From Uloborus plumipes (taxonomy: Eukaryota; Arthropoda; Arachnida; Araneae; Uloboridae), in assembly GCA_038373865.1 (NCBI GenBank), contig JAXGGA010002292.1:62001-126000 (forward strand): DNA of 64,000 bases, read 5' to 3'. Below the pieces are notes generated by a model, which ran no database searches, had not been told where the DNA came from, and worked only from the letters and a program-made list of their open reading frames with translations. How positions within the stretch are numbered: the stretch's first letter is position 1; each line of letters begins with the position of its first letter. Position numbers and translations under genes: made by a program. Below are positions 46,287 to 61,857 of this stretch, piece after piece.

Positions 46287-47564
46287 CACTGCTCGACATT
46301 GAAAATGCAACACCAAGAAGGAGTGGTCAGAAATTGATGAAATTTGGTAAGAAGACAGAGACAGCATGGAACAAAAAGTGATATTTATTTCAAAATAAAT
46401 AAGCAAAATTTAGAGCGAGGACGGCGTCGGCTCAGTAAGAAGTAGGACCACCGCGGACAGCGATGCACGAAGAAACACGTCTAGGCATGGAGTCAATAAG
46501 CCTGCGGATGGTGTCCTGAGGGATGGCACTCCATTCCCTTTCAACCATTTGCCACAGTTCGTCCTCTGAACGAGGCAGTGACAGGTTCTGCAAACGGCGT
46601 CCAATCACGTCCCACACATGTTCGATTGGTGACAAGTCAGGAGAGTATGGTGGCCAGGAAAGCATCTGTACACCTCGTAGAGCATGTTGGCTGATTCGAG
46701 CACTGTGAGGCCGGGCGTTATCCTGTTGAAAAATTGCATTTGGCAGACCCTGAAGGTAGGGGATTGCCACCGGCCGCAGTACATTATCTACATATCGTTA
46801 GGCCGTCATAGTGCCCCGAATACGAACTAGAGGTGATACGGAATTGTATGCAATAGCGCCCCAAACCATTATGCCACGTTGTCGCGCTGTGGGGAGTTCC
46901 ACAGTTACTGCCGGGTTCGATCTTTCTCCACGTCGACGCCACACACGTATGCGATGACTATCGCTGGACAAACAGAAGCGGGATTCATCTGAGAACACTA
47001 CGGTTTGCCATTCTGCCATCGCTCTGGTCCGGCACCATTCCAAACGTTGGAGTCTGTGCTGTGAGGTCAATGGCAGTCTTCTTAGTGGGTGCCGTGATTG
47101 CAGGCCACGTGCAACCAGTTGACGGGAAATGGTTCTGGTCGACACAGGAACATCCAGGGTACCTTGCACGTGCTGCAGAATCGACGTACAAGTGACTTGT
47201 GGGTCCGCCACAGCTTGTCGGTGAATCCGTCGATCCAAGCGGTCTGACGTCACTCTGGCTGCACCTGCACCCCTCAATGTCCCAAGTAACACTGAAACGC
47301 AACCTTTACGTTTCATTACGTTACAATTGGTTGACAGATCGTTACTGTTTTCCAGGCAACGTGATAACACGCTATTTTGAAGATTCGTCACAAAAGCCAA
47401 ATTTTGAAACGCAACATTTCGTGGCAAATTAATTATACTTGAAACGTTGACAAACATGCTGAAAGATAACGCAACATCACGTTGCTTATCGTTGTTTGCT
47501 ACATCCACTGCTCAACTAGTCGCTTTTGGCAGGAATCTTTGCATTCTTCATTGTCGAGTCACTG
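46287..47564 (-). mobile_element. Tc1-like transposon, right end degenerate
   Basis: The left end CACTGCTCGACATTGAAAAT follows a TA (46285-46286). A diverged inverse (TGCATTCTTCATTGTCGAGT then CACTG) occurs at 47540-47564, without a clear TA. The transposase pseudogene lies between on the minus strand. The region 47290-47540 is not recognisable as transposase and may be rearranged. Confidence 0.7.
46432..47290 (-). pseudogene. Tc1-like transposase with one in-frame stop
   Basis: The minus strand reads RVTSDRLDRRIHRQAV, a linker with STRTISRQLVARGLQSRHP, then VVFSDESRFCL (first Asp), RQRGIMVWGAIAYNS, IFQQDNARPH (second Asp) and YSPDLSPIEHVWD (Glu). The DD34E triad is complete. A single TAA at about 46795-46797 splits the frame into 47508-46798 and 46770-46432, which are otherwise continuous. 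The frame stays open upstream to 47508, but that stretch does not look like the usual N-terminal helix-turn-helix, so the N-terminus may be lost. Confidence 0.88.
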
Positions 47565-48645
47565 CTGTTGTGTTGTGCGTGATCGGTTTTCATTTTGTAA
47601 TTTTGCTCAATCAGTCAATTAGATTCAAATAAAGGTATGTATTCTGCATTACTTTTTTTTGTGAAGTTTTTTCTTTCTGGTTAGTATTCGTTGTCTTTAG
47701 TTCTAAAAACATGCTTTTCTTATTTTAGTACTTTGGAAATTTCTTAAGAGTCCGTAACCCTAAAATAGTGTTATCGTCGTTGATTTAAATCAACGTCGAT
47801 AAAGATCACCAGGCCCAAATTTCCCAATAGGCAAAGTAGGCAGCTGCCTAGGGCGGCAAATTTTTAGGGGCGGCAAATTTTACTTCAATCTTTTTTTTTT
47901 TTAATTTTTTTCCCCGATACAGCGACGATGATTCCAAATTATCGGACTTGACCAAAATCGCCGAAACCACAGAGAATCCAATGTGGCGGACTTCCGGTAC
48001 TCAGCTTAATTTTTAGCTTACGGCAGCGACGAAGTATATCAAACACTCTAAAGAACTTCCCTGAACTCAGAGAAGCCAGAAAGGTTCCTCTGGAGCTCAT
48101 CAGGAACCTCAGGGAAAAGATTTAACATCTGGTTACAAAGCGAACGAGCTGCGCTAGAGGGGCTGAGTGACCATTATCCCCTTTTGTGTTCTATTATGCC
48201 CGTTACCACGTTATCTCTCTACGAACAGACCGAGTTCTACCAGTAGGGGTACTCATCAGGAAAAATTAGTTGAATTGGAAAAGTAATTTACGATTACTGC
48301 TTCTTGTTCAGAATAAAGTATTTTCTTAAAACCTACCTCGTTGGGAAATGCTTAAGTACTGCTTTTTCCCTTTATTTTCCGAAAAAACAAAATAAAATGA
48401 AACTGTGGGAAGTTGGGTGGGAATTTTAACCCGAAATTCCCCTTCGGGGACTGGGACTGGACTACTGATTGTAGTTCGAATAGGATTTTTAGTAACGTTA
48501 TTTCTGTGGTTTTCGGAGTTCGCGCGTGTTTGTTCTATTCTAGTGTTTAACTTAAATTGTTGCTCTTTTCTGTTTTGTTTTACTCTAATAATCTCTGTGG
48601 AATTTATTGAAAATGAGTGATGGACGAAAAAGGCTGAGTGGTGCG
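47565..48645. other. Left flank of the PolB element; no gene
   Basis: At about 47820 CCCAAATTTCCCAATAGGCA, followed by a repeated GGGGCGGCAAATTTT, looks like a hAT-type terminus. The minus-strand frame 48326-48730 crosses the element boundary and has no recognisable content. There is no similarity to the LINE sequence that flanks the other side of the PolB element. Confidence 0.45.
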
Positions 48646-48878
48646 AGTAGTAGATAAAGGAGAGTTCTGCAACAAGAGGAAGTGTGAAGTGTTCACACTT
48701 CCTCCCGCCACCTCCCGCCGCCTCCTCCACTTCCTCCCCCCACCTCCCGCCGCCTCCCTCCGCCGCCTCCCCAGGGCCGCCGCGAGGATTTTAGTTTTTG
48801 GATGGCAACATCCAAGTTTTGATTTCTTGAAATGGCAACAGGTTTGGTTGTCATGACAACCAATGTTTTGGTTTCTTT
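48646..48878 (+). repeat. Left terminal inverted repeat of PolB element
   Basis: The outermost 22 bp (AGTAGTAGATAAAGG...) match the other terminus at 16 of 22 positions. The middle is a CCTCC/CCGCC-rich low-complexity stretch that differs between ends. The inner part (48763-48878) is 116 bp with one visible mismatch to the right repeat. It includes GGATGGCAACATCC and the palindrome TTGGTTGTCATGACAACCAA. A 12-bp stem hairpin (AGGAAGTGTGAA/TTCACACTTCCT) lies at 48677-48703 only at this end. Confidence 0.9.
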
Positions 48879-50480
48879 GAATTATTTTCGTGAAAGGTTA
48901 CAAGGGTTTTTCCTGCAAATTTCTGAATATTTCCCGCGAATTTTAGGACTTTGAATTATTTTCGCGATTTTCGAACTTAGAAATTTTTTTCCTGAAAAAA
49001 TATTTTTTTTTTTAAGTTGATGGTCCCACCAGCCAGCCCGGGTGTAGTCAAACAAAAAACACCCCCATCAACTTTTTTTTTTTTCTTTTGCCAAAATCTG
49101 CTGAAGCAATTTGCTAATGCAGTTGCCTGCTAATGCAGTTAATTTAGTTAATTAGCCAAAAGTTCAAATCTTTTTTTTTTCTTTACCACGTTCACAAAAG
49201 TTAAATGACAAAAAGGACCCTTGAAGTGTAAAATTATAAGTCGTGTATCGCGACTTCAGTTCAACAGTCCTTACAATTTAAAAATAAACTCACCAAAAGA
49301 CGACTTCTTTTTTCTTCTTTCTGCAAATAAATGGTACTTTGATGCGATTTTAGTGTCGCATGATTGTAATATGTGAAGTTACCAAACATTCACATTCAAT
49401 TCATGGCACATAGGTTTTAAATACAATTTTAGTGCAGGTGATCATAATATATGAGGTTATCAAACACTCACATTCAATTCACAGCACATAGGTATACAAT
49501 TCACAGCACATAGAAAAAAGACATTTTGGACTTTTGGCAGATCATAGATAATGAGTTCAAAAATATATCACTCAATCATTTAATCATATCCTGACACCTG
49601 GAGATTTCATTCAGGGCGTCATAACCGAGGGTTTTGTTGATTTCCAGGTATCAGTCACCTTCCTCGACTCAACCATTGAAATCATCAATCACTAACATTC
49701 ATGCAAATTCATTCATTCTATTTCATTCACACACATTCACACACACACATTCTCACTCACTTTCATTCAACACAATTAAAAATCAACAACAATTTAAAAA
49801 ATCAATAACAATTAAAAAATCAATAGCAATTAAAATACAACAAGTTAAAATTTTCACACATTAACTATAAAGAGGCCATCACCATCTGAAAAGGAAAACT
49901 GATTATACATAAACATACACTCAGGTACCTTAAAAAATAAATAAATAAATAAATAAAAAAAAAATAAATCAAAAAAATCAAAAAAAAATAAAATTTTTGC
50001 AGTCAAGTAGGAAAAAAAATCAAAAGAAATAAAATCAAAAAAAAATTTTTTTTAGCAAAGTTATGGCCAGTTAAAAAAGAAAAAAAAGAGCTCAGACTTT
50101 GGTATGGTTATTATCTATTTTCTTTCCATTGCTTCATTCTCTATTTTATTTTATTTTTAATTTCAATTACTTTTACTTCATTTCCTCCTTTTTTTTCCCA
50201 AGATTCTTCATATTATTTTTTCAATTTTCTTCTGTTTTCAAAAAAATTTCATTTCTTCAGTTCTCAATTTTTTTTTTTCAAAAACTTCAATTTTTCAAAA
50301 TCTTCAGTTTTTAAAACATTATTCTTGAAATTTTCAGGAAATCTTCTATTTTCCAACTTTCTTGGAATTTCAATTTTTTTTGAAATATCATTAATATTTA
50401 TGAAAATATGTTGAATATATACAGATGAAATATGTACAATTGACGATGAATATTTACAATTTCCGTACGACCTCCACCAT
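48879..50480. other. Left subterminal non-coding region of PolB element
   Basis: It is AT-rich. Two and a half copies of a roughly 76-bp tandem repeat lie at about 49340-49515 (shared core ACATTCAATTCA-GCACATAG). An A-rich tract spans 49930-50060. No recognisable frame. Frames at 50099-50314 are poly-T artefacts. Confidence 0.6.
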
Positions 50481-53400
50481 TCACCGGGTGATGCTATGAT
50501 GACCATATGCTAATGTATTGACCAGATCAGGAAGGATGTATCTCTTGTCATCAAATGGAGATAATGCAGTTTTATTCATCTGCAGAGTGTACAGTTGGTG
50601 GGCATCACTACCAATTTTTATCATTCTCTCTCGGGTTGCTCTAACGTCTTCGAGACATTTTTTATAATCGTTGTGAGTGATTTTTTTCTGAACCACCCGT
50701 CGAGAGACGCCCTTTGCAGTTTTCTTCTCCATATTCGATAACTTGATAGAATACATCTTCGACCTTAACCCGACGAATTCCTGTATAATCTTCCCATTCG
50801 CCTCATCTTTAAAGCACCCAATCCTCTTCTTATTCACATTACTATGAAGTGGATGATCCTTCGGATACTCAGATGTATCATATAGATGGAGATAGGGTTT
50901 CATGTCTTCATAGACGTCTTCTGTCTCAATCTCATACATTAATGAGTCTGTGTCTGTGAAGAGAAGTTCAGCTCTTATGCCATACAGGTTTAAAATGTGG
51001 TTATAGTGGAAGTCGTACATAAGAATTTTACTTATCTCCAAGATGACGAACCCCACGTAAATAGGCCGGTTGAGCATTATGGATGTTTTCACCCGCTCAA
51101 CACCGGCAAGCTCCTCAGAGAAAATTTTAAACGAGCGGAAACTAGGTGCCGCTGCAACTTTCAGTGCACGTCGCTCTGTTTGGACTAGTTGGATGTCCAC
51201 ACGATTCCTCAGGTTCTCCATCGTTTTGCCGTACACCGAGTTGTTCATCAACTTAAAAAAGTCCTTTTCAAAGGAGTTTGTTGCAGCTTTTCGCTTCTCA
51301 GTGTTGAACTCGATGTACGGCTTCAACCAGGCCTTCTGCTTGAACGATAGAATTCTATGCACTTTTTTAATTTTCAATCCTAAGGATAGATACAGTTGCA
51401 GATTTCTATGATATGTGATATATTTCTCTTTATCACATAAATTTGGCACCAGCTTCTCACATGGCGTAAATTTTTGTTTGTGAAGCCGCTCTAAGATTTC
51501 CAACGCTGACGGAGATAGCATATCCTCCGAAATCTTCATTTTTTCAGCGGCCAACGGATATAGATTGTGTACTTCATGTAAAGAGTCAGGGTAATGCAAA
51601 TCCACTTCTAGGATGTAGCCAACATCGCTGTCTTTTGGAATGGAGGATATCCATGCTTCAGTCACCTGGTTGACATCAAGCCATTTAAAATCTGAATAAG
51701 GAAGCTTAGAAGCCATAGCAGCCCCATATAAATTATTGCAGTCAAGATACATGAGGTATTTGGATGGTTTGGATGGGTCGTATTCCTCCATGTATTTATT
51801 ATTGGCTTCAGCATGTCTTTTCGATATGACGGAAATTCCGCCACGAATACCCTGCTCGATAAAAAGATGCATGTCTATATCCGTCAACAGCTCTAAGGAT
51901 TGGTTCGTCATCTTGAGGGATGCCTGCCATGCTAGACCTGGTGCTGTATAAGTATGTGCAGGATCAATTTTATAGTATTGTTGGCATATTTTTCGAAATT
52001 TTTGATATATGTCAGCCAGCTGCTTCACATCAGATGCGACGTACAAGTCGTGATACTCTCCCAAGGTCTTGATATCAAATTTTTCCCATACATTTACTGC
52101 ATGATCATATTCCTCTTGAGAGATATCTTCATCCGTCAGCTTACTTCGAAATGCTGATTTAGGCGGGAGTGTATCTTCGTGAAATTTCTCCATAGAATCC
52201 ATGTATTCGTATGGATATACTCCTTTACGGAGCAGCAGCTGTACTTTATCTGCAGGCATATTATGGGAAAGGAGATGGAAGTCATTCACATTCATATTTT
52301 CTACCAATTTCTCCAATGATGTTGGCATGAATTGGAGGCTATCCAAAAACACCAGATGAACTTTTTCACCTCGTTTTTCATCTCTAGGTGCAATAGAAAA
52401 CGAGATGTACTTTTCCATATTGGTGGGAATTAGTTGATACTCATATTCTTTGAATGCACCCAGTGTTTTAACAATATGATGTGCATCATAATTTTTTAAA
52501 TTGTGGAAGATTATAGGAATCATCTTCCGCATTCTATATTTGAGGTTGCATTGTCTATGTGCCGCCCCTCTGTACATCCCACTGATATGGTCATGGTCCC
52601 GGACACGATCCCTGTTTAAAACTTTCTGGCATATGTGACAGGTGACAGCCGCTTGGAAGCTCGCTTCTTCCTGTGGAGAAAGATGCATTGGCTGGACATC
52701 GTTCAACTTTTCGGCAAGCTCTTCTCTTTCTTCCAATATTTTTTCCACAAAGTGTGCAGCTGCATCTACACCTCTGTATATGCTAATAGGCTTCAACTGC
52801 TTGCCGTCTGGACCGACAATAAGGTAGGCATACCCACAAGCCTCATGTCGACTTATTTTCTCCGTAAAAGAGTCATCAATTTGTGGCTGGACTGAATGTA
52901 TGGGAACGATGATAGATTCAAAGTCCGCATAGATTACGTATGGGATTGGATGTTGATAATGCTCATGTTGAAATGAGAGAATGTTTTCACCCTTCTGGGG
53001 TAGTCGAATTCTTTGAATTGGTACATTTTTACAATATTGATGATGCTCTTCAAGGAGATGTTTTTTGCAAAAGCGATGAAGGCAGCGATAACAGTAGAAG
53101 CATTCTCCATCATGCTTTGTGAGACTGTTGAGTAGTCGATCCATATTTTTAATGAGGCAGTAATGCTGCTTCTCCTCATTTGCAATCAAAAGTAGATTGA
53201 TAGCCTCCATATCTTCACGTTCCGATATATGTAATGGGAACACCACATCATCATCTTCACAGCCAAAAACATTTATTCGAAGATTATTCATCTTCTCAAT
53301 TGCTGGAATTTTGGCTAGGGTGACTGGGAAATCAATTCCATCCATTTTGATTTCATTTTCATGTGCCACATAATGTGACACACGATGCGGTTGATCCTCC

Positions 53401-56347
53401 CTTGGAATATTCATTTTATATGCCAACAAGCACCAGGTCAAGCATTTGTTATCCTCGTTTTGAATGTTTAATATGGCTTTCTTGGCCTGTATTTTCTTCG
53501 ATAGTTTTATGTAGCTGCGTCCAGCCAATGGCGCATATTTCGCGCATTGCACCTCTACATGAATTACATGATCGAGGGTCCACCCCGATCCAAGCTTCAG
53601 GAACTCTTCAAACGTGTGTTCCACTTTGGTGATTGCATCCTCCAGATGGTTAGGAATGGTGTGCTCCACCAACTCAATTTGTGATGCACATCCAAAGTGA
53701 TGTGTGATCACTTGTCGCTCTCCATTTTCAAGTAAGCGCGAGAGTTGTGATTTCATAACAATCCGCCACTTAATTGCTTGCTTCTCCCTCATTTCATCAT
53801 TAAGAAGATTTTTAATTTGAGGTCGCAATTCCTCAAATGTCATCTTCACATCTTCGGCATTTTCGCGCGAAGGTTTCAACTTCTCCAGTGCAAAAACACC
53901 TAAGGCAGTTTGCCTTGTTTTCCTAAAATTTTTTTTTTTGGATGGGGCGGAACCCTGATCGACAGCCTTGCGTTTTGAGGGTCCTGCTGTGTGCATCACA
54001 CGCACATGCTGCAGCAAATTTGACTTTTGGTTAAACATTTGCTCACAATGGGTACACTTGTAAATGGGCTCACCATGAGCTGCACGTTCGTGCCTCCTCA
54101 AATTGTCCAATCGTGTGAACACCATATCGCAGTCATTGCATTTCATAGCAGATTGAGCAGTTGCAGGTGCATGTGTCAACATGTGCCTATTCAAATTACA
54201 TTTTTGATCAAATCCTTTTCCGCAGTGGAAGCATGGAAACGGCTTTACCTTCAAATGTATTTTAGTGTGACGTGACAAGGCATCTTTTCTGGAGAATGTC
54301 TTGTGACAAATCTCACATACCTATCAAAGAGACAAAAAAAATCTCTTTTAGAATGAGACCTACTTAAAAGTCAAAATACTTCATCCTTAACATTAAAACT
54401 ATTTTCATACTATTCTGTCTAATGAGCCGATTCGACTTAATTTCAAACATAGTGAATAATGAGTCAATTCGACTAAACATATTTCAAACTAATTCAAGAT
54501 AATCCTATTTCAATCAACCGCTTATTTCAAACACTCTGAATAACAACCTGATTCTACTTAAAACTATTTCTCCAATCCCACACATAAACACAAATATATA
54601 CTCACTTGATCTATTAAAATCAATCAAATTTTCTATCCCCTCCAAAAAATCACATTTCAAAAAATATTCACTGCAAAATTTGCACTCATTGTACATATAT
54701 TATTCCTCGTTTAAAATTACAAATTGATCAGTTAAAATGACGCAGAAACCATGTTTTCAAAGCATTCGAGAAAAGGGTAGCATTTTACGCATCATTAAAC
54801 ACCCCTCTCCTGTCGTTGGAGTGAACACAATAGGAGAAATTTTCCGCTCCTCTGAACAAATTCGCAACTAGTATGAGTCAGATATACAAACAAGTGATTC
54901 CGGATAAAGAAAAGGCGAAAGAGCAAAGTTTTTCTTACCCAATTGAAAAGAATAGAATTGAAAAAACAAAATGAAATTTATTTTCCCTCAATTTTTTTTT
55001 TCTTTCCTCAAAATTAAAATATCAACTTTGCAATGAGTTAACTTTGCAGTAAAAATAAATTGAAATTTTCATAAATTAAAACAATCAAATTTTTCCCATC
55101 TGAAAACACATTATACAATTCATCCAAAATAATTTCCCACGGCTAAAAACACATCATACAACTCATTCCCCAACCTGAAAACACATTATACAGTTTTTTC
55201 CCCAATCCAAAATAAAAAAAAAAAAAAAAACTCTCTCTCTTATGAATTGCAGATAAATTCAAAGTAAAAATAATTAATACAGCGAGTAAGTTGATCACAT
55301 CAAATGCAAAGTATAACAAAATAATACAAAGTGTAGCGTGTTAAATACAATCAACACAAAATGTAAAGTGTAACATGATAAACACAAAGTGCAATTAACG
55401 CGATTAATGCAATGAGTAACTAATACAAAGTATGCATGAAAAAATAATTATTGTGAGACTCACAAAGTGCAATTAATGCAAAGTATACATGAAAAAATAT
55501 AAACAGATTACAATATGTAAGCGCGGTTGGTATAAAATACAATTAACGCGATTAATGCAAAGTGTAATTCACACAAAGTATGCATGAAAAAAAAAAAAAA
55601 ATAATTGTCATAAGACTTAAACTGAATTCAATTGAAAAGAGAGAGAGAATTTTCAAAAGAGAGAAGCATATGATATAATTTTCACAAGTTAAGTTTAGCG
55701 AACATGATTTATTTATTTTTTTGAATAAAAATTATTATATCATATACTTTAAACAGAATAATGCACTTACATGAGCAGTTTTCGTCGCCGTGGATCTCAA
55801 TGTGGAAGGCACAACCATCACATCATCACGGGTGGCGGAAGTGGGTTCATTCGTTGAAGTGGAGGGCTATTAAAAGAAAAATAACAACAATGAATATTTA
55901 TCACAGAATAATTACAGTTGAGAAAAAATATTGAAATAATACTTACAATTGCAGCAAATCCGGGTGGTACTGATGACATAGCGAGTGCGGGAGCACGCGT
56001 CTGAGTCGATGGCTATTAAAAGAAAAAAAAATAACAACAATGAATATTTATCACAGAATATATATATATATATTACAGTTGAGAAAAATATTGAAACAAA
56101 ACTTACAATTGGCGCAAATCCGGGTGGTGTCGATGGCATAACAACTGCGGGACGGAGTGCATCATCGGGTATTTCGGCCATAAGTCGGTCCCATTCATCA
56201 GAATTAATGCCAAAATCGAAAATCTGAGAAAAGAATTCATTTTAAGTCATCTGTAAAACGTTATAAATTAAATGCAAAATCAAATGATTAAATAAGAATT
56301 GAAATTGTACTTACGTTTCCACTGGTGAAATTAGATGAAGAAGCCAT
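50481..56347 (-). CDS. Protein-primed type B DNA polymerase with C2H2 fingers, five exons
   Basis: Predicted exons on the minus strand are 56347-56315, 56223-56107, 56012-55947, 55866-55771 and 54320-50481. All have GT donors and AG acceptors, all introns are phase 0, and the product is 1383 residues. Exons 1-4 encode a Ser/Thr/Pro-rich leader with two PPGFA motifs. Exon 5 opens with four C2H2 fingers (first CEICHKTFSRKDALSRHTKIH). Then come a Cys/His block (CYRCLHRF), Exo I (YADFES), an endonuclease VII-like zinc/HNH motif (CHICQ...RDHDH), Exo II (FHNLKNYD), Exo III (YHDLYVASDVKQLADI), Pol A (YLDCNNLYG, about residue 962), Pol B (KLMNNSVYG) and Pol C (FTDTDS, about 1225), plus KMYSIK. All catalytic residues are present, so it is likely active in replicating the element. 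The leader exons are inferred from splice signals only. Confidence 0.9.
54321..55770 (-). other. Large intron 4 of the polymerase gene
   Basis: It is 1450 bp, AT-rich, with a donor after GCTCAT at 55771 and acceptor TTTGATAG at 54321. It contains imperfect repeats near 55380-55590 (CAATTAACGCGATTAATGCA twice, AAAGTATGCATGAAAAA or near-copies three times). No alternative coding exon is recognised. Confidence 0.65.
55863..56135 (-). repeat. Tandem duplication of an exon-intron unit
   Basis: Exon 2 end plus intron 2 (56013-56135) and exon 3 end plus intron 3 (55867-55975) are near-copies. Both introns carry AACAACAATGAATATTTATC and ACAGTTGAGAAAAA, and both exons end with an SxPPGFAxI coding sequence before CTTACAATTG (the donor, read in reverse). 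Intron 2 has an extra (TA)n. Confidence 0.85.
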
Positions 56348-56929
56348 ATCGAACGTAAGCAAAAATGCTAAACTAAAACGATTAAACAGCGAGGATTCTC
56401 AAAGAGAAAAAGTACGTCTACTCTGGATAAAATCTGAGAGAGAAGTGATTTGAAAATTAAGCTAAGCTTGATAAAGTGAACAACGTGACGTTACTTTTAA
56501 GTGACCAATTGAAATGCTTGAAAACTTGAACTAATCTAAAAACAGTGATGTCACTCTAATTCAAGACTTTCATTGGATTGTGATGATATCACCGATACTA
56601 CAAGTGCTGCACATGCGCGAACTGATAAGACAAAGGTCGCTTGTGGTCAGGGGATGATGATTAACCGTCACATGATCGACGCAGGGAGGACGTTCGATGA
56701 TATCACCGATACTTCCAATGCGTCTTATTAGGCCCTCTGCACATGCGCGAACTGATAAGACAAAGGTCGCTTGTGGTCAGGGGATGATGATTAAGCGTCA
56801 CGTGATAGATACGTAGTATGATTCCCCGACCTCAGCGCCACTAATTGATAAGACAACGATTGCCTTTTTGTAAGATAAAAGTCATTCTTGCTCTGGTACT
56901 TGTTGCAAGCAGTTGTTCGAAACTTTTCA
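56348..56929. promoter_or_regulatory. Divergent promoter region between PolB and AlkB
   Basis: The two genes start 583 bp apart and head away from each other, so they probably share this region. Between 56582 and 56811 a unit of about 100-116 bp is present twice: GATGATATCACCGATAC, then GCACATGCGCGAACTGATAA, then GTCGCTTGTGGTCAGGGGAT. The second copy has about 16 extra bp. AAGATAAAAG at 56871 could act as a TATA-like element for the AlkB gene. Confidence 0.6.
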
Positions 56930-58168
56930 ATGGATTACAATCTAACAACCTTCGGATTGAATGTTCATGTTAAAGAGCATTTTTACGACGCAAATGAATC
57001 TGATAGAATTCTTAAAGAACTATCAAAAACCCCGTTTCAGGACATTAATGTGGTTGTATATGGACGAAATTATATCCCAAAAAGAAAATCATATTCTTTT
57101 GGTGATGAAGGACTTAACTACCAGTATTCCGGCACTACAAATATCGCGAATGCTTGGACCCCGACGATGCTGAAAATAAAAGGTGACGTTGAATGTGTGA
57201 CAGGGAAGACGTACAACTATGCCCTTTTAAATTATTACGTCGATGGAACTGCAGCTCTCGGCCAGCACAAAGACAATGAAAAAAGTATTGAGTCATCAAG
57301 TGGTGTTGCGTGTGTCAGTTTCGGTGCATCAAGAACCCTCTCCTTTGAAAGACCTGGTTTCCCAGCGCAGCAGCTTCAATGTCATCACGGAAGTTTATAC
57401 CTCATGCTACCTCCCACAAACGAATTGTTTACCCATGGAATAAAGCCAGACCGTAATATTCAAGGTTCAAGAATAAGCATCACCTTTCGAAATATTATCG
57501 AGAAAGAAGCGACTGCGAAACGACGAAGGATTGATGAGAGTACAATGGAGTCAGCCTCGCAGCCGAGTGGAACCCCCGTGAAGTCAACGCAGCCTCCCGC
57601 GTCCCCAGTGACAACTCACGCAGTGGAAGGTGAAACTTTAAACGGAGCCGTCGATCCTGGAAGAAAACACAAGAAATTGACTTTTTCATCGTGCGAAAGC
57701 GATCCCTCACCAATTGTACCACCAGAACCCTGTCCTGAATCGGAACTTTTGATGGATTTTGGCCCACTTGATTGGATGGATCATTTTTTCCAATCTCAAG
57801 TTGATCGTTTTGAAACAAAGACTATTACAGCAATGGACTTATACTTTGGCTGTGTGAATGTACTATTGGAGGGAAACGGCAGCCTTGTTATTCAGATGGA
57901 GGATACATCAAACCACACGCATATCAATTTCAGTCCGTGTGGATGGATCGACTTTTGTGATAAACTCATGAACTTTAATTGCATATATGCGGATAGCAGT
58001 TTTGTAGCCGAAAATGAGGTTTTAGTATTATGTTCCGATGGAGCCTGCAAACTTCAAAAATTGGAAAAAACATCGCATTTCCAGCTCTCGCCAGATGTTT
58101 TTATATTAAGTGAAGAATCATGTAATCAATTGAGAGAAAAAATCAAGAAGTTAAAGAAAAAATATTAG
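56930..58168 (+). CDS. AlkB-like 2-oxoglutarate/Fe(II) dioxygenase
   Basis: 412 residues from the ATG at 56930; the same frame is open for 14 codons upstream without an ATG. Residues 40-190 form an AlkB-type core: a nucleotide-recognition-lid-like YQYSG segment, then YYVDGTAALGQHKDNE with the HxD iron ligands (His113, Asp115), a second His (FTHG, His169), and Arg181/Arg187 in SRISITFR for 2-oxoglutarate. AlkB enzymes remove methyl or other alkyl groups from DNA or RNA bases. After a basic KRRR cluster and a Pro/Ser linker, residues 270-412 form a second, unrecognised domain (VNVLLEGNGSLVIQM...INFSPCGWIDFC) ending in a Lys-rich tail. All ligands are present, so it may be active. Its role in the element is inference: protecting, or erasing marks on, the element's nucleic acid. 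Confidence 0.9.
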   Translation: MDYNLTTFGLNVHVKEHFYDANESDRILKELSKTPFQDINVVVYGRNYIPKRKSYSFGDEGLNYQYSGTTNIANAWTPTMLKIKGDVECVTGKTYNYALLNYYVDGTAALGQHKDNEKSIESSSGVACVSFGASRTLSFERPGFPAQQLQCHHGSLYLMLPPTNELFTHGIKPDRNIQGSRISITFRNIIEKEATAKRRRIDESTMESASQPSGTPVKSTQPPASPVTTHAVEGETLNGAVDPGRKHKKLTFSSCESDPSPIVPPEPCPESELLMDFGPLDWMDHFFQSQVDRFETKTITAMDLYFGCVNVLLEGNGSLVIQMEDTSNHTHINFSPCGWIDFCDKLMNFNCIYADSSFVAENEVLVLCSDGACKLQKLEKTSHFQLSPDVFILSEESCNQLREKIKKLKKKY

Positions 58169-58197
58169 ATATTGTGTTTTCGCAAATATTGAGAAGT

Positions 58198-58533
58198 ATG
58201 CTAGAATCTCAACAGAAGGAAATGAACATTGCTCCCATGACCATGGAAGATTGTGTGCAAAAAATTAATCAATGCCTGCATACTGAAATTGTCAACTGTC
58301 TCAACAAGTATTTGAAGTGTGATGGGTGTAAAGTTTCGCACCCCTCACAACGACGTCATGAATGTATGACCACATCTCCAAAAGAAAAATATTACCTCAT
58401 GGACAGTTATTATCTAATGTGTATGAACTTTAAAAAATTAACATTTGAAATTAGTGAAATTGTGCACATACCAAAGGATATTTTCGACCAACTTAATTTG
58501 AAACACATACTACATGTCTGCAATACTCTGTAA
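58198..58533 (+). CDS. Small Cys/His protein with CDGCKVSHPSQ motif
   Basis: 111 residues from the ATG at 58198, 29 bp after the AlkB stop and in another frame; the frame is open upstream, with a GTG at 58174. It contains C-x2-C-x4-HPSQ-x3-HEC (CDGCKVSHPSQRRHEC), a probable zinc-binding cluster. I recall this motif from uncharacterised proteins of animal mobile elements, but cannot name a function. The close spacing suggests co-transcription with AlkB, with a polyadenylation-like AATAAA at about 58555. It could instead be a 3' part of the AlkB gene reached by splicing or frameshifting. Confidence 0.6.
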   Translation: MLESQQKEMNIAPMTMEDCVQKINQCLHTEIVNCLNKYLKCDGCKVSHPSQRRHECMTTSPKEKYYLMDSYYLMCMNFKKLTFEISEIVHIPKDIFDQLNLKHILHVCNTL

Positions 58534-58706
58534 GTATTTTATGATTGTTTTTTAAATAAATGCTTTTTTTCTGTGAAATATTCTTTCTGTAGCAAGTTAA
58601 GTTAAAATTATATTACTCACTTTTTCCCTTTAAAGTAATCAAATGTGTTTATAAGTTAAAAAACTAAATAATGACAAGTCAGTGATAAAGAAAAAATAAT
58701 TTTTTA
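58534..58706. other. Convergent intergenic region
   Basis: Short AT-rich spacer between convergent genes. AATAAA-like signals are present on the plus strand near 58555 and on the minus strand near 58700. Confidence 0.5.
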
Positions 58707-59360
58707 TTAATATATGTTATCCCATTTTACATTCAGTTTTCTCTTTCTTTTGTGATGATGATTTACATTTTTTGGTGAGAGTATAGGCTTTACATCTTCT
58801 TCTGTGACAATTTTCTTTTTATGTAAATTTTTATTTTTCACAAAATGTCTTGGTACATTCATTTCATGCAATGAAGTTAAAAATTCATTTGTCCACGGGA
58901 CATCAATATTTTTCTTATGACTGAAAATTAAATTTAACAAGTCTGCAATGTTTGAATGTTCAATCTTCTGATTTTTATAAATGACTTCTCCTTTTTCATT
59001 CCATTTGAGAATATCCGAATGTCTTTTCATAATGTCCAATAAGTTGTGGGCTTGATTCAAGTATTGTTTATTAATACTGTTGAATATAGTCGACTCGTAC
59101 TGCTGAGGATTTTCTTCTGCTTTCTCCATTTTTCCTTCTTCTTTAGACCGTTGCTGTTGCATCCACGGTGGGTTATTTTCGGCTAGGTTTAATTTCTTTT
59201 GCAGTAATTCAGTATACTTTGTCAATTTTTCATGTTCTTCAAGATTGCTGTGCAGAATTTTCATCATTTCCTTATCTAATTCGCTGAGTTGTTGAGGTGT
59301 AACTGTATGTTTCGAGACCAGATCTTCGGGAACAAGTGCATATTTCTTAGCGTGTTCCAT
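58707..59360 (-). CDS. Polinton-associated-type protein (ALVPEDL family-like)
   Basis: 217 residues from the ATG at 59360 (open upstream to 59384 without ATG). The N-terminus KKYALVPEDL then LDKEMMKILHSNLEEHEKL resembles proteins I recall from Polinton/Maverick-type elements (pattern [KR]-[FY]-x-LVPxE[LD]L, then an LDxEM...IL helix). A charged middle is followed by a conserved-looking C-terminal block, ILKWNEKGEVIYKNQKI...NIADLL...EFLTSLHEMNVPRHF. It ends in a basic NHHHKRKRKLNVKW tail suited to nucleic-acid binding. Function is unknown to me; a structural or DNA-associated role is a guess. It runs toward the AlkB unit. Confidence 0.6.
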   Translation of the reverse strand: MEHAKKYALVPEDLVSKHTVTPQQLSELDKEMMKILHSNLEEHEKLTKYTELLQKKLNLAENNPPWMQQQRSKEEGKMEKAEENPQQYESTIFNSINKQYLNQAHNLLDIMKRHSDILKWNEKGEVIYKNQKIEHSNIADLLNLIFSHKKNIDVPWTNEFLTSLHEMNVPRHFVKNKNLHKKKIVTEEDVKPILSPKNVNHHHKRKRKLNVKWDNIY

Positions 59361-59603
59361 TGCCGAAAATGCTCGATAATGCACTCACTGCTGCAGGAAT
59401 TAAGAAATTTAGAAAGCCACCTTTTGAACGACTATCTTTCGTTATTAGTTAATCATTACACTGGGTCGATAAGTAAAAAATTAATTTTCATTGACAAAGT
59501 TCGATTTCAGCTTGAAAAATAAATTAAGTTTGAAGAAATAATTAAATTCGAAAAAAATAAATTTCCGTCAACAGATGGCGACACGATCGAAATTAACTCT
59601 GTA

Positions 59604-59820
59604 AAAGAAACCAAAACATTGGTTGTCATGACAACCAAACCTGTTGCCATTTCAAGAAATAAAAACTTGGATGTTGCCATCCAAAAACTAAAATCCTCGC
59701 GGCGGCCCTGGGGAGGCGGGGGGAGGTGGCTGAGGGAGGCGGAGGTCGCAGGCGGATCAAGGGGGCGTGGCTGAACCCCTGAACCTCCGGCTGTCGGTGA
59801 ACTGTCCTTTTCTCCCTACT
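59604..59820 (-). repeat. Right terminal inverted repeat of PolB element
   Basis: It is the inverse of the left repeat. The inner 116 bp (59604-59719) are almost identical. The outer segment diverges in the CCTCC-rich part but ends in the related AGTAGGGAGAAAAGGACAGT (minus strand). Confidence 0.9.
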
Positions 59821-61857
59821 ATCAGCAAGGTTATTGCCAAAAGAAGTAGAGTGAGCCTTAACCCAAAAGATTTTCGTTTCAATAATATTGTTAATATTTA
59901 ATAAATTTTTTTGAATTGAGTGGATGATATCAATTGTTGTATGGTAATTTAGAAGTGCAAAAATGGAAGAAAGACTGTCAGAAAAAATATAGAAGCGTTC
60001 AATAGTAAAAGAAGTTGTGCGAATGAAGCGATTTATCCAATTGGTGGCTAGGTAAATAGCTATTAATTCAGCTTGGAAAATGGTATTATTATGATTAAGT
60101 ATAACAGAGTTAGAGTAGAATATATCATTATTATGAATTACAGTGAATGCGCAAGCTGTTCCATTAATTGTTTTTGAGCCATCTGTGAAGATATTGAAGT
60201 CATTGTTGGAGATTTTGTCGTTCATAAGGGTGCAGAAACGAAGATAAGTCAATAGAGTATGGTAGATAATGGTGTGTTTTTTTCACAAAGCTATTAGCGG
60301 CGAAGTTTAAATTATGTAATGAAAGTGGTTTATTTTGAGAAATGGTGGAAAATTTTTTTTGAGATGCTATCAAGGTAAATGTGAAGAGGTGGTAGATCAG
60401 AAAGTATTTGAAGAGCATCTGTTGAAACGGTCCTGTAGCACTTAGTAATAGAGAGAAGAAATGGTCTTTGAATAGTGTCTAATTTTCTGTAGGAACGTTT
60501 TGTAAGTGAAGGAAACCAAATTCCAGCTGCATAATCGATTAACTTGATAAAAATTGTCTGATATAGATGTTTCAAGAGTTTTGCAGAAATAGAGCGCTTG
60601 AAATTTGAAATTCTGGTAAATTTTTGTAACAGGATATGTGTTTTTGTTTGTAAGTATTCAATATGAAGATTAAAATTTAAGATTGGGTCGAACATAACAC
60701 CAAGATATTTGACACCGTTAGAAGGATAAGGAATTGGTTTATTTAAAAAATTTTATGGTAGGATTTCTTCCTTTGATTCTTTTTGATCTATTGTATAATA
60801 TTTGGCTGGATGTTAGTTGTTTACCGAAGCAAATGGCAGAAGATTTTTTTATAGATACTGTTAAATGGAAAGTTTCAACCCAGGATTCAACAAGTCGTAC
60901 TGCCGTAGCTGCATTCATTTCAAGGTCTTTTCTTGAACTTCCAGCTACAACCAATGCAATATCGTCAGCATATGCTTGAATGTGGCAATTATTAGGTAGT
61001 TCAGATTTGAGAAGAGTATTTATAATAATGTTTCATAAAGTAGGGCTTAGAACAGAGCCTTGTGGGCATCCAGTTTCAAGTTCAAAAAAGAGAGATTTGT
61101 CATCCAAATTTACTGAGAAAGTTCTATTTAGAATGGATTGGAAAATTAAAGAAGTATAAGTTGGATTCAGTTGGAATTTTATAAGTTCATGATGTAAATT
61201 ATTGTAATTTATGGAATTAAAGGCTCCAGTGATATCAAATAGAATTAAAAGAGTATAATTTCCCGAAGAACGAAAGTTGTTGATATTGTCTAAAACAGAA
61301 GAGAGAGAGAGAGGAAATAGTAGATTTGCCTTCGATAAATTCAAATTGGAGATTTGAGAAATCAGGATGATTGTGTATAATAGGTGAAATGCGTTTGAGA
61401 ATAATTTTTTCAAGGATTTTTCCAAAGCAATTGATAAGAGAGATAGGTCTGTAGTTATTTGGATCATTGAGATTTTTATTTTGTTTAGGAGTAAAACAAT
61501 ATTTGAATTGTTAAATATTGGAGGAAAGAAGTCAAGAGAAAGGCATTTCTCAAAAATGAAAAGCAATGTTTTTGGGAAATGAGTATAGATAAGTCTCAAA
61601 ATGTTGAAGTCAATTCCATCTGGACCTGGAGCCTTTTTGGTAGAGAATGAAAAGATTATATCTCTAAGTTCTTTGTCAAAAATAAAAAGATCCAAGTTTT
61701 CTATTGAGCTGGTTGAAGACGGGAAAGAAAGAGAAGGAGATGCAGAAGTTATTGCATTGAAAATTGTTTTTACAATGTTGGTGATATTATCAGTAGAAGA
61801 GAGAAAATTATTAGAAGTGGAAAAGCTAAAACGATTATGAAGAGGTTTGAAGTGTGG
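59821..61857 (-). pseudogene. LINE ORF2 (reverse transcriptase to RNase H), truncated
   Basis: The minus strand encodes an R1/Jockey-like ORF2: KKAPGPDGIDFNIL, FDITGAFNSI, GCPQGSVLSPTL, the active site QAYADDIALVVAG (about 60960-60990), the thumb region, and RNase H with FTDGSK, QAELIAIY, FSDSLSS and NNLAD (Asp-Glu-Asp-Asp). Lesions seen are a TGA just after SPTL (about 61037), a frameshift near 60745, and at least one more near 60300-60350. The 5' end begins at about 61857 without endonuclease. The 3' end is cut after NNLAD at 59821, exactly where the PolB element starts. It is not functional. Confidence 0.9.

Follow-up and report, generated by a model that had tools for sequence, protein, structure and literature searches.

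Within a 64,000-nucleotide stretch of the genome of the spider Uloborus plumipes (contig JAXGGA010002292.1, positions 62,001 to 126,000; "the window" below means this whole stretch), positions 48646-59820 hold a Polinton/Maverick-like element that carries a DNA polymerase, PolB, and an AlkB-type dioxygenase. To place it, we searched the 1.42-Gb assembly (25,906 contigs) and examined the regions around nine further PolB matches; copies outside the window are referred to by handles such as C3239. The features of the window element are as follows.

48646..48890, plus strand: left terminal inverted repeat, beginning AGTAG; its inner 154 bp match the right arm
48679..48701, no strand: terminal hexamer array of the left end (GAAGTG at 48679-48684, GAAGTG at 48686-48691, inverted CACTTC at 48696-48701)
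50481..54320, minus strand: PolB main exon with four N-terminal C2H2 zinc fingers; a single open frame, starting behind a 3' splice-like site
55770..56347, minus strand: probable small upstream coding exons of PolB, proposed by eye (MASSSNFTSGN.. IFDFGINSDEW..), with an IDFGI.. likeness in protein P0023
56930..58165, plus strand: AlkB, an ALKBH2-like 2-oxoglutarate (2OG)-Fe(II) dioxygenase (PF13532 and ALKBH2 matches) with a PC4-like region behind it, the PC4 identity being weak
58126..58533, plus strand: Cys/His tail of the AlkB protein, in a shifted frame in the window
58707..59360, minus strand: p225, a conserved protein of unassigned fold with 20 listed relatives, between the replication and virion genes
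59350..59427, minus strand: remnant of p115, its final 26 residues, 92% identical (tblastn with sister-copy proteins)
59446, no strand: junction between C3239-like sequence on the left and a C6046-like right arm on the right
59588..59820, minus strand: right terminal inverted repeat, its outer portion of a different type (GGTTCA twice, inverted copy absent)

Terminal inverted repeats of the Polinton/Maverick kind are present, and the long repeats with AG...CT ends that had been reported in a first-pass annotation of the sequence are real: the element runs from AGTAG to CTACT, and the inner 154 bp (48737-48890 against 59588-59745) are inverted copies at ~94% identity. The outermost 91 nt on the left and 75 nt on the right are of unlike types. 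Copies C6046 and C3239 start at the base equivalent to window position 48646.

The PolB main exon is one uninterrupted frame of 1279 codons, as its description as intact-looking had implied. Its identity comes mainly from its relatives, Uloborus diversus proteins at 69-70% and an annotated adintovirus PolB from the Parasteatoda house spider (P0040) at 50%. In a Pfam hmmscan of the protein the matches listed were to families of zinc fingers, to Endonuclease VII below threshold and to others at chance level, with DNA_pol_B_2 missing; a six-frame genome search placed PF03175 at the window PolB with 74 bits. An OTU-like domain gave no Pfam match up to E 1 in this protein, whose likeness to a named adintovirus PolB is to that single one. 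Kinship therefore suggests a protein-primed polymerase of the Polinton/Maverick kind, with priming itself expected from the family. The first exons probably lie upstream, judging by eye from the 3' splice-like site ahead of the main exon, and in the Stegodyphus gene model P0023 a like IDFGI.. segment is linked to zinc finger 1. In that model (Stegodyphus dumicola, 'zinc finger protein 107-like'), where the start of p225 is fused to PolB zinc fingers, a relative of the element has been annotated as a gene of the host. In C6046, a 478-residue zinc-finger protein (L009:2746-4179), 41% identical at its C-terminal end to the N-terminal part of PolB, could possibly be a polymerase-free decoy or regulator.

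The AlkB domain matches PF13532 at 1.8e-21 (Pfam), the closest solved structure is human ALKBH2 (1.3e-26, core over residues 21-190), and GQHKDNE, THGIKP and RISITFR are all found, which correspond to the HxD...H iron site and the RxxxxxR-type 2OG motif. The nearest named protein is from Uloborus diversus (55%). The Cys/His open reading frame at 58126-58533, proposed earlier as a protein of its own, was rejected as a separate gene, since it is the C-terminal tail of the AlkB protein in P0002 and in the sister copies C3239, C3906 and C8773. In C10017 the AlkB gene is split over two frames. The fold model of P0002 has a mean predicted local distance difference test (pLDDT) score of 47, with residues 185-455 below 50. 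Between domain and tail, a PC4-like, single-strand-binding middle is plausible from the arrangement in C1812, a full copy without AlkB: there an open frame matches PC4 over its cut-off (2.5e-9) and adjoins a frame with likeness to the Cys/His tail (1e-8), and the two frames, read separately, are probably one gene. A PC4 profile aligned to the AlkB protein itself gave no significant match (hhalign probability 0.14%), and the PDB none either.

AlkB is present in 6 of the 11 PolB copies read (window, C6046, C3239, C3906, C8773 and C10017) and was not found in three (C9930, C1812 and C930); in the other two, C2149 and C24054, the contig ends before the AlkB position. The earlier suggestion of a maintained accessory, not confined to the window copy, is thus supported, AlkB being a lineage accessory among the copies read.

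The 20 relatives of p225 among the protein-database matches listed include several from Araneus, the nearest named being Araneus ventricosus. A fold model of p225 (mean pLDDT 69.6) yielded 49 viral matches when E values as high as 10 were allowed and none at 0.001, and a phage collection queried with p225 yielded nothing useful. The ratio of non-synonymous to synonymous substitution (dN/dS) between the window and C8773 is 0.12 for p225.

Outside the element, the left flank (48600-48645) encodes MSDGRKRLSGA, which resembles the start of a hAT/ZMYM-type gene and is cut by the element. On the right, a LINE-like reverse-transcriptase/RNase H frame recognised by eye (59823-61032, minus strand) is interrupted after GNNLAD by the element's right end. 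A frame at 46798-47511 (minus strand) resembles, by eye, a Tc1/mariner-type transposase.

Full sister copies and the internal deletion

Four sister copies (C3239, C3906, C10017 and C8773) share the gene order integrase, ATPase, protease, three putative virion proteins, then p115, p225, AlkB and PolB. The full copy at C3239:54422-70931 is flanked by the target duplication ACTGAG. Its integrase combines an rve domain (PF00665) with a C-terminal chromodomain (PF00385), and near-identical integrases lie in C3906, C10017 and C8773; its ATPase matches Pox_A32 over the cut-off, and its protease scores 21.2 bits with the adenovirus-type Peptidase_C5, just short of the 21.3 cut-off. An integrase with a chromodomain is given as typical of adintoviruses in the main text of PMC11071296, whose definition also includes a hexon recognisable by BLASTp against reference hexons and a distinctive PolB with an OTU-like domain at its N-terminus. 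A PHROGs scan named only a transposase-like integrase, with otherwise weak matches, and viral contig scans with PolB and the putative hexon gave nothing useful.

When the sister-copy proteins were used as tblastn queries against the window, they found, beyond the genes already known, the p115 stump only. No integrase, ATPase, protease or putative virion protein was detected by this search, nor the rve integrase with its C-terminal chromodomain, so the absence of recognisable capsid, ATPase and integrase genes noted in the first-pass annotation stands. Outside AlkB, the window is 83-100% identical to the complete C3239 per 250-bp bin, mostly 94-99%. The ends are kept, the interior is gone, a p115 stump lies at the breakpoint and full relatives are present in the genome; the stump together with the full sister copies marks the window copy as a deletion derivative. 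At 59446 the C3239-like sequence gives way to one resembling the right arm of C6046, the two local alignments meeting at this base. Very probably, in our view, the window copy is an AlkB-carrying adintovirus-type (Polinton/Maverick) element that sits integrated in the genome as an internally deleted chimera and has lost the genes for integrase, packaging and protease as well as those predicted for the capsid. It would have arisen when two copies of the element underwent an illegitimate crossover.

Several points weigh against this reading or parts of it. The names hexon, penton and core for the sister-copy proteins are our assumption from gene order and length; none of them is backed by a profile match over the cut-off, and the 462-residue protein is called hexon-like by position only. 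No 6-bp target duplication was found in the flanks of the window element, which weakens the case that this copy ever integrated as its present unit. Many copies at high identity also allow mis-joins in assembly, and here both ends and flanks mismatch; even so, an assembly chimera of two real elements seems distinctly improbable to us, because the left end is the start of two other copies, the AGTAG motif is found at both ends and the inner junction is sharp to the single base.

The flanks and ends also bear on a different history, to which we give only slightly less than an even chance: that the chimera arose after insertion, by ectopic recombination of two integrated copies, with flanks from different sites and the duplication lost, and was never a free genome. 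The left and right flanks differ, the right one interrupts the reverse-transcriptase/RNase H frame seen by eye, the duplication is missing, and the two outer ends are of unlike types. However, the ends of C6046 are also unlike, yet CACGTG is duplicated at its flanks, which shows that an element with mixed ends can insert as a unit; and C10017 and C8773 are without a duplication although both ends agree in each. For the deleted chimera as we read it, the present copy is likely dead, because its right-end hexamer differs from the one predicted from its PolB and its AlkB tail is out of frame.

Module exchange and terminal hexamers

Different parts of the element have different closest relatives. 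Integrase synonymous divergence (dS) is 0.005-0.019 among C3239, C3906, C10017 and C8773. Between the window and C3239, the synonymous sites of AlkB are saturated and p225 is 99% identical; the window AlkB is of C6046 type (100% identical over residues 1-385), and the window p225 of C3239 type. Window PolB shares 97% identity with that of C3239, 69% with that of C8773 and 59% with those of C3906 and C10017. Among the window, C3239, C3906 and C10017, identity per 250-bp bin is 86-100%, where aligned, in the non-coding DNA upstream of PolB (54396-56895) and 98-99% in the p225 stretch (58896-59395). PolB dN/dS is 0.15 for the window against C6046 (954 codons) and 0.06 against C3239 (943 codons). 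Within PolB, dS in the zinc-finger part is 0.42-0.68, against 0.11-0.16 just behind it (window, C6046 and C3239), which points to exchange at the fingers; C8773 and C9930 have no such excess. Judging from these patterns, PolB, AlkB and the integrase/virion block are exchanged as modules among otherwise similar copies.

Most copies carry, 33 nt from their ends, a hexamer followed by a direct second copy and an inverted copy. The hexamer is GCGGCT in C3239, C3906, C10017 and the left end of C6046; GCGGAG in C8773, C9930, C2149 and the right end of C6046, and in C1812 without the inverted copy; GTGCAG in C930; and GTGGCT-like in C24054. The window's left-end array of GAAGTG has a spacing of 1 bp rather than 2 bp and was read at the 33-nt offset found for the other copies, the script itself having reported the overlapping AAGTGT; the hexamers of C1812, C930 and the window right end were read by eye.

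Against these hexamers we read fingers 2-1 of each PolB. The fit to the element's own hexamer is 6/6 in the window and C8773, 5/6 in C3239, C6046, C3906 and C930, and 5.25/6 in C2149, with one base open. Fingers 1-2 of PolB thus tend, in this prediction, to match the terminal hexamers of their own element. Some results and features of the test count against such a match. C1812 fits at just 4/6 and C10017, at 2.5/6, is a misfit; the zinc-finger recognition code used is an assumed one; and for C6046 and the window the left-end hexamer only was scored, their right ends carrying other hexamers. The permutation P is 0.018 for eight copies and 0.002 for nine after C930 was added (read later, with the code already fixed and unchanged), and the copies are related rather than independent, which makes the true support weaker than P. 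C9930, a near-duplicate of C8773, and C24054, where the finger sequence is absent, were left out of the test.

From these features we propose how such elements may replicate. PolB would copy the linear genome by protein priming from its ends, as expected from its family, and its fingers 1-2 would read the terminal hexamers and so select the element's own DNA. The AlkB protein could clear alkyl damage from the long single strands exposed in replication, held on them by the weakly supported PC4-like region. To move and be packaged, the window copy would depend on full copies for its integrase and capsid.

Defective and partial forms in the genome

The counts in this section are lower bounds: 113 integrase matches were scored of 3119 candidates, 36 PolB of 2086, 92 capsid-type of 151 and 150 p225 of 165 (giving 139 matches), and end repeats were scored for 40 of 295 and 40 of 234. 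The PolB co-location count used 36 of 39 PolB matches (three short pieces being dropped), with p225 matches from PolB contigs only.

A 6-bp target duplication is present in 6 of the 9 copies with both ends read (C3239, C3906, C6046, C9930, C1812 and C930) and was not found in the window, C10017 or C8773. Three of the six, C6046 (CACGTG), C9930 (TGTATT) and C930 (GTTGTT), have no detected integrase. C6046 carries PolB, AlkB and the extra zinc-finger gene, no virion gene being detected. C9930 is a fold-back form, with two inverted PolB arms of 4123 bp at 99.88% identity and neither integrase nor capsid-type gene detected.

C9930:13878-26900: fold-back element (L015/L016), two inverted PolB arms, 6-bp duplication

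An inverted PolB pair similar to that of C9930 lies in C7213, and inverted p225 pairs, 2.5-6.4 kb apart, on C2761, C2777, C5362, C18898 and C6501 are likely to be further fold-back elements. In C24054, a 3.6-kb low-complexity tract (L026:1-3669) is open in six frames.

The element in C930 (9382 bp) has PolB as its sole recognised gene, with ends identical over 399 bp. Its 4.0 kb upstream of PolB matched no other element protein except zinc fingers, in a search that left out 1.2 kb downstream, and integrase, capsid-type gene and p225 were not among the matches listed. Virion-free PolB elements therefore exist, and the window copy is not of that kind.

Among the PolB places of at least 1259 residues listed, 7 of 15 lie within 20 kb of both a listed integrase and a listed capsid-type gene; the other 8, which include the window and C2149 at a contig end, do not. 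Listed PolB lies within 16 kb of at least 11 of 66 capsid-type places (at least 78% identity). An earlier count, which had put PF03175 within 16 kb of 5 of 60 integrase loci, was discarded as too low when the PolB protein search found more; it had used 60 of the 113 integrase matches (at least 86%) and the best 67 of the 139 p225 matches.

These counts might suggest a separate lineage of PolB elements, living without virion genes and carrying AlkB as an accessory, as proposed in the first-pass annotation. The 8 of 15 long PolB places would be consistent with it, as would C6046, with PolB, AlkB, a target duplication and no virion gene detected. For the window copy we regard it as very improbable: the p115 stump largely refutes it, this copy follows the complete C3239 closely outside AlkB, and in C930, which does lack virion genes, AlkB was not found in the stretch searched. 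The window copy as an independent virion-free lineage was thus rejected. That all other copies carry integrase and capsid genes, the result named beforehand as refuting such a lineage, is borne out in part: C3239, C3906, C10017 and C8773 do carry both, the capsid being predicted, and the 8 long PolB places have neither listed within 20 kb.

Integrase, capsid-type gene and p225 are present in 5 of 17 elements bounded by end repeats, with no listed PolB and gene-free gaps of at most 3.6 kb, in which the 3.8-kb PolB would not fit; integrase/virion elements without room for PolB measure 9.7-11.6 kb. Of the remainder, C930 holds PolB alone, C8813 and C9254 PolB and p225, C13020 a capsid-type gene and p225, and C5362 two p225 genes, while 7 of the 17 have none of the four genes (integrase, capsid-type, p225, PolB) among the matches listed.

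This suggests another possibility, which we think unlikely: a split two-part system of ~10-kb PolB-only and integrase/virion-only elements with common terminal repeats that complement each other, the window copy being a damaged replication part. C930, with its identical ends and its own duplication, and the five PolB-less elements would be the two kinds of part, and ends of the C930 type are found as well on C5612 (96%) and C1147 (100% over 315 bp), both integrase/virion elements without PolB. However, elements with both parts exist (C3239, C3906, C10017, C8773 and C1812 as read; C221, C9780 and C5355 by listed genes). The integrases of PolB-less C80 and C4846 are 99% identical to that of C3239, so that split forms can be plain deletion derivatives; and the PolB search scored 36 of its 2086 candidates, with the seven elements that showed none of the four genes as a further caution. 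A fuller version, in which the ~10-kb parts are inserted separately and share ends, PolB fingers are exchangeable and read matching hexamers, and the replication part has AlkB as a repair module that can be swapped, seems equally doubtful to us; if the split reading were true, the finger-hexamer match would decide which DNA each polymerase copies.

Relation to known systems and significance

The deleted chimera that we favour resembles adintoviruses and Polintons (Mavericks) in its PolB and in inverted repeats starting AG, and its sister copies resemble them in having an integrase that joins rve and chromodomain, an ATPase, a protease of adenovirus type and, in some of them, duplications of 6 bp. 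It differs in that the window has no integrase, ATPase, protease or virion genes, that PolB carries C2H2 fingers, and that a Cys/His tail extends the element's ALKBH2-like enzyme. Beside ALKBH2 dioxygenases, with which the catalytic core aligns, the element protein is encoded by a mobile element and adds C-terminal PC4-like (weak) and Cys/His parts. By title and the start of the abstract, no paper joining Polintons and AlkB dealt with such elements, the account of adintoviruses by Starrett et al. 2021 lying outside that scope, and the main text of PMC11071296 has no occurrence of AlkB.

The deleted and fold-back forms have their own counterparts elsewhere. Protein-primed linear DNA viruses such as adenoviruses produce defective deleted or fold-back genomes. 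The spider forms are alike in keeping the ends and losing the interior, and in the near-identical fold-back arms of C9930, but they sit integrated in the genome, and target duplications flank some of them. The replication protein (Rep) of small DNA viruses and plasmids reads short origin repeats (iterons). The short end repeats of this element are predicted to be read by a replication protein in a similar manner, with the difference that the predicted reader is a zinc-finger pair on a protein-primed DNA polymerase.

Within one mobile virus family whose copies are similar elsewhere, modules for replication, a repair enzyme and the block of integrase and virion genes appear to be swapped, and deleted, fold-back and PolB-only forms coexist with full copies in one genome. 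The finger-hexamer match, if true, would offer an explanation, open to testing, of how a polymerase that uses protein priming could recognise its own ends, and an AlkB enzyme fused to a Cys/His tail would link alkylation repair with strand-displacement replication.

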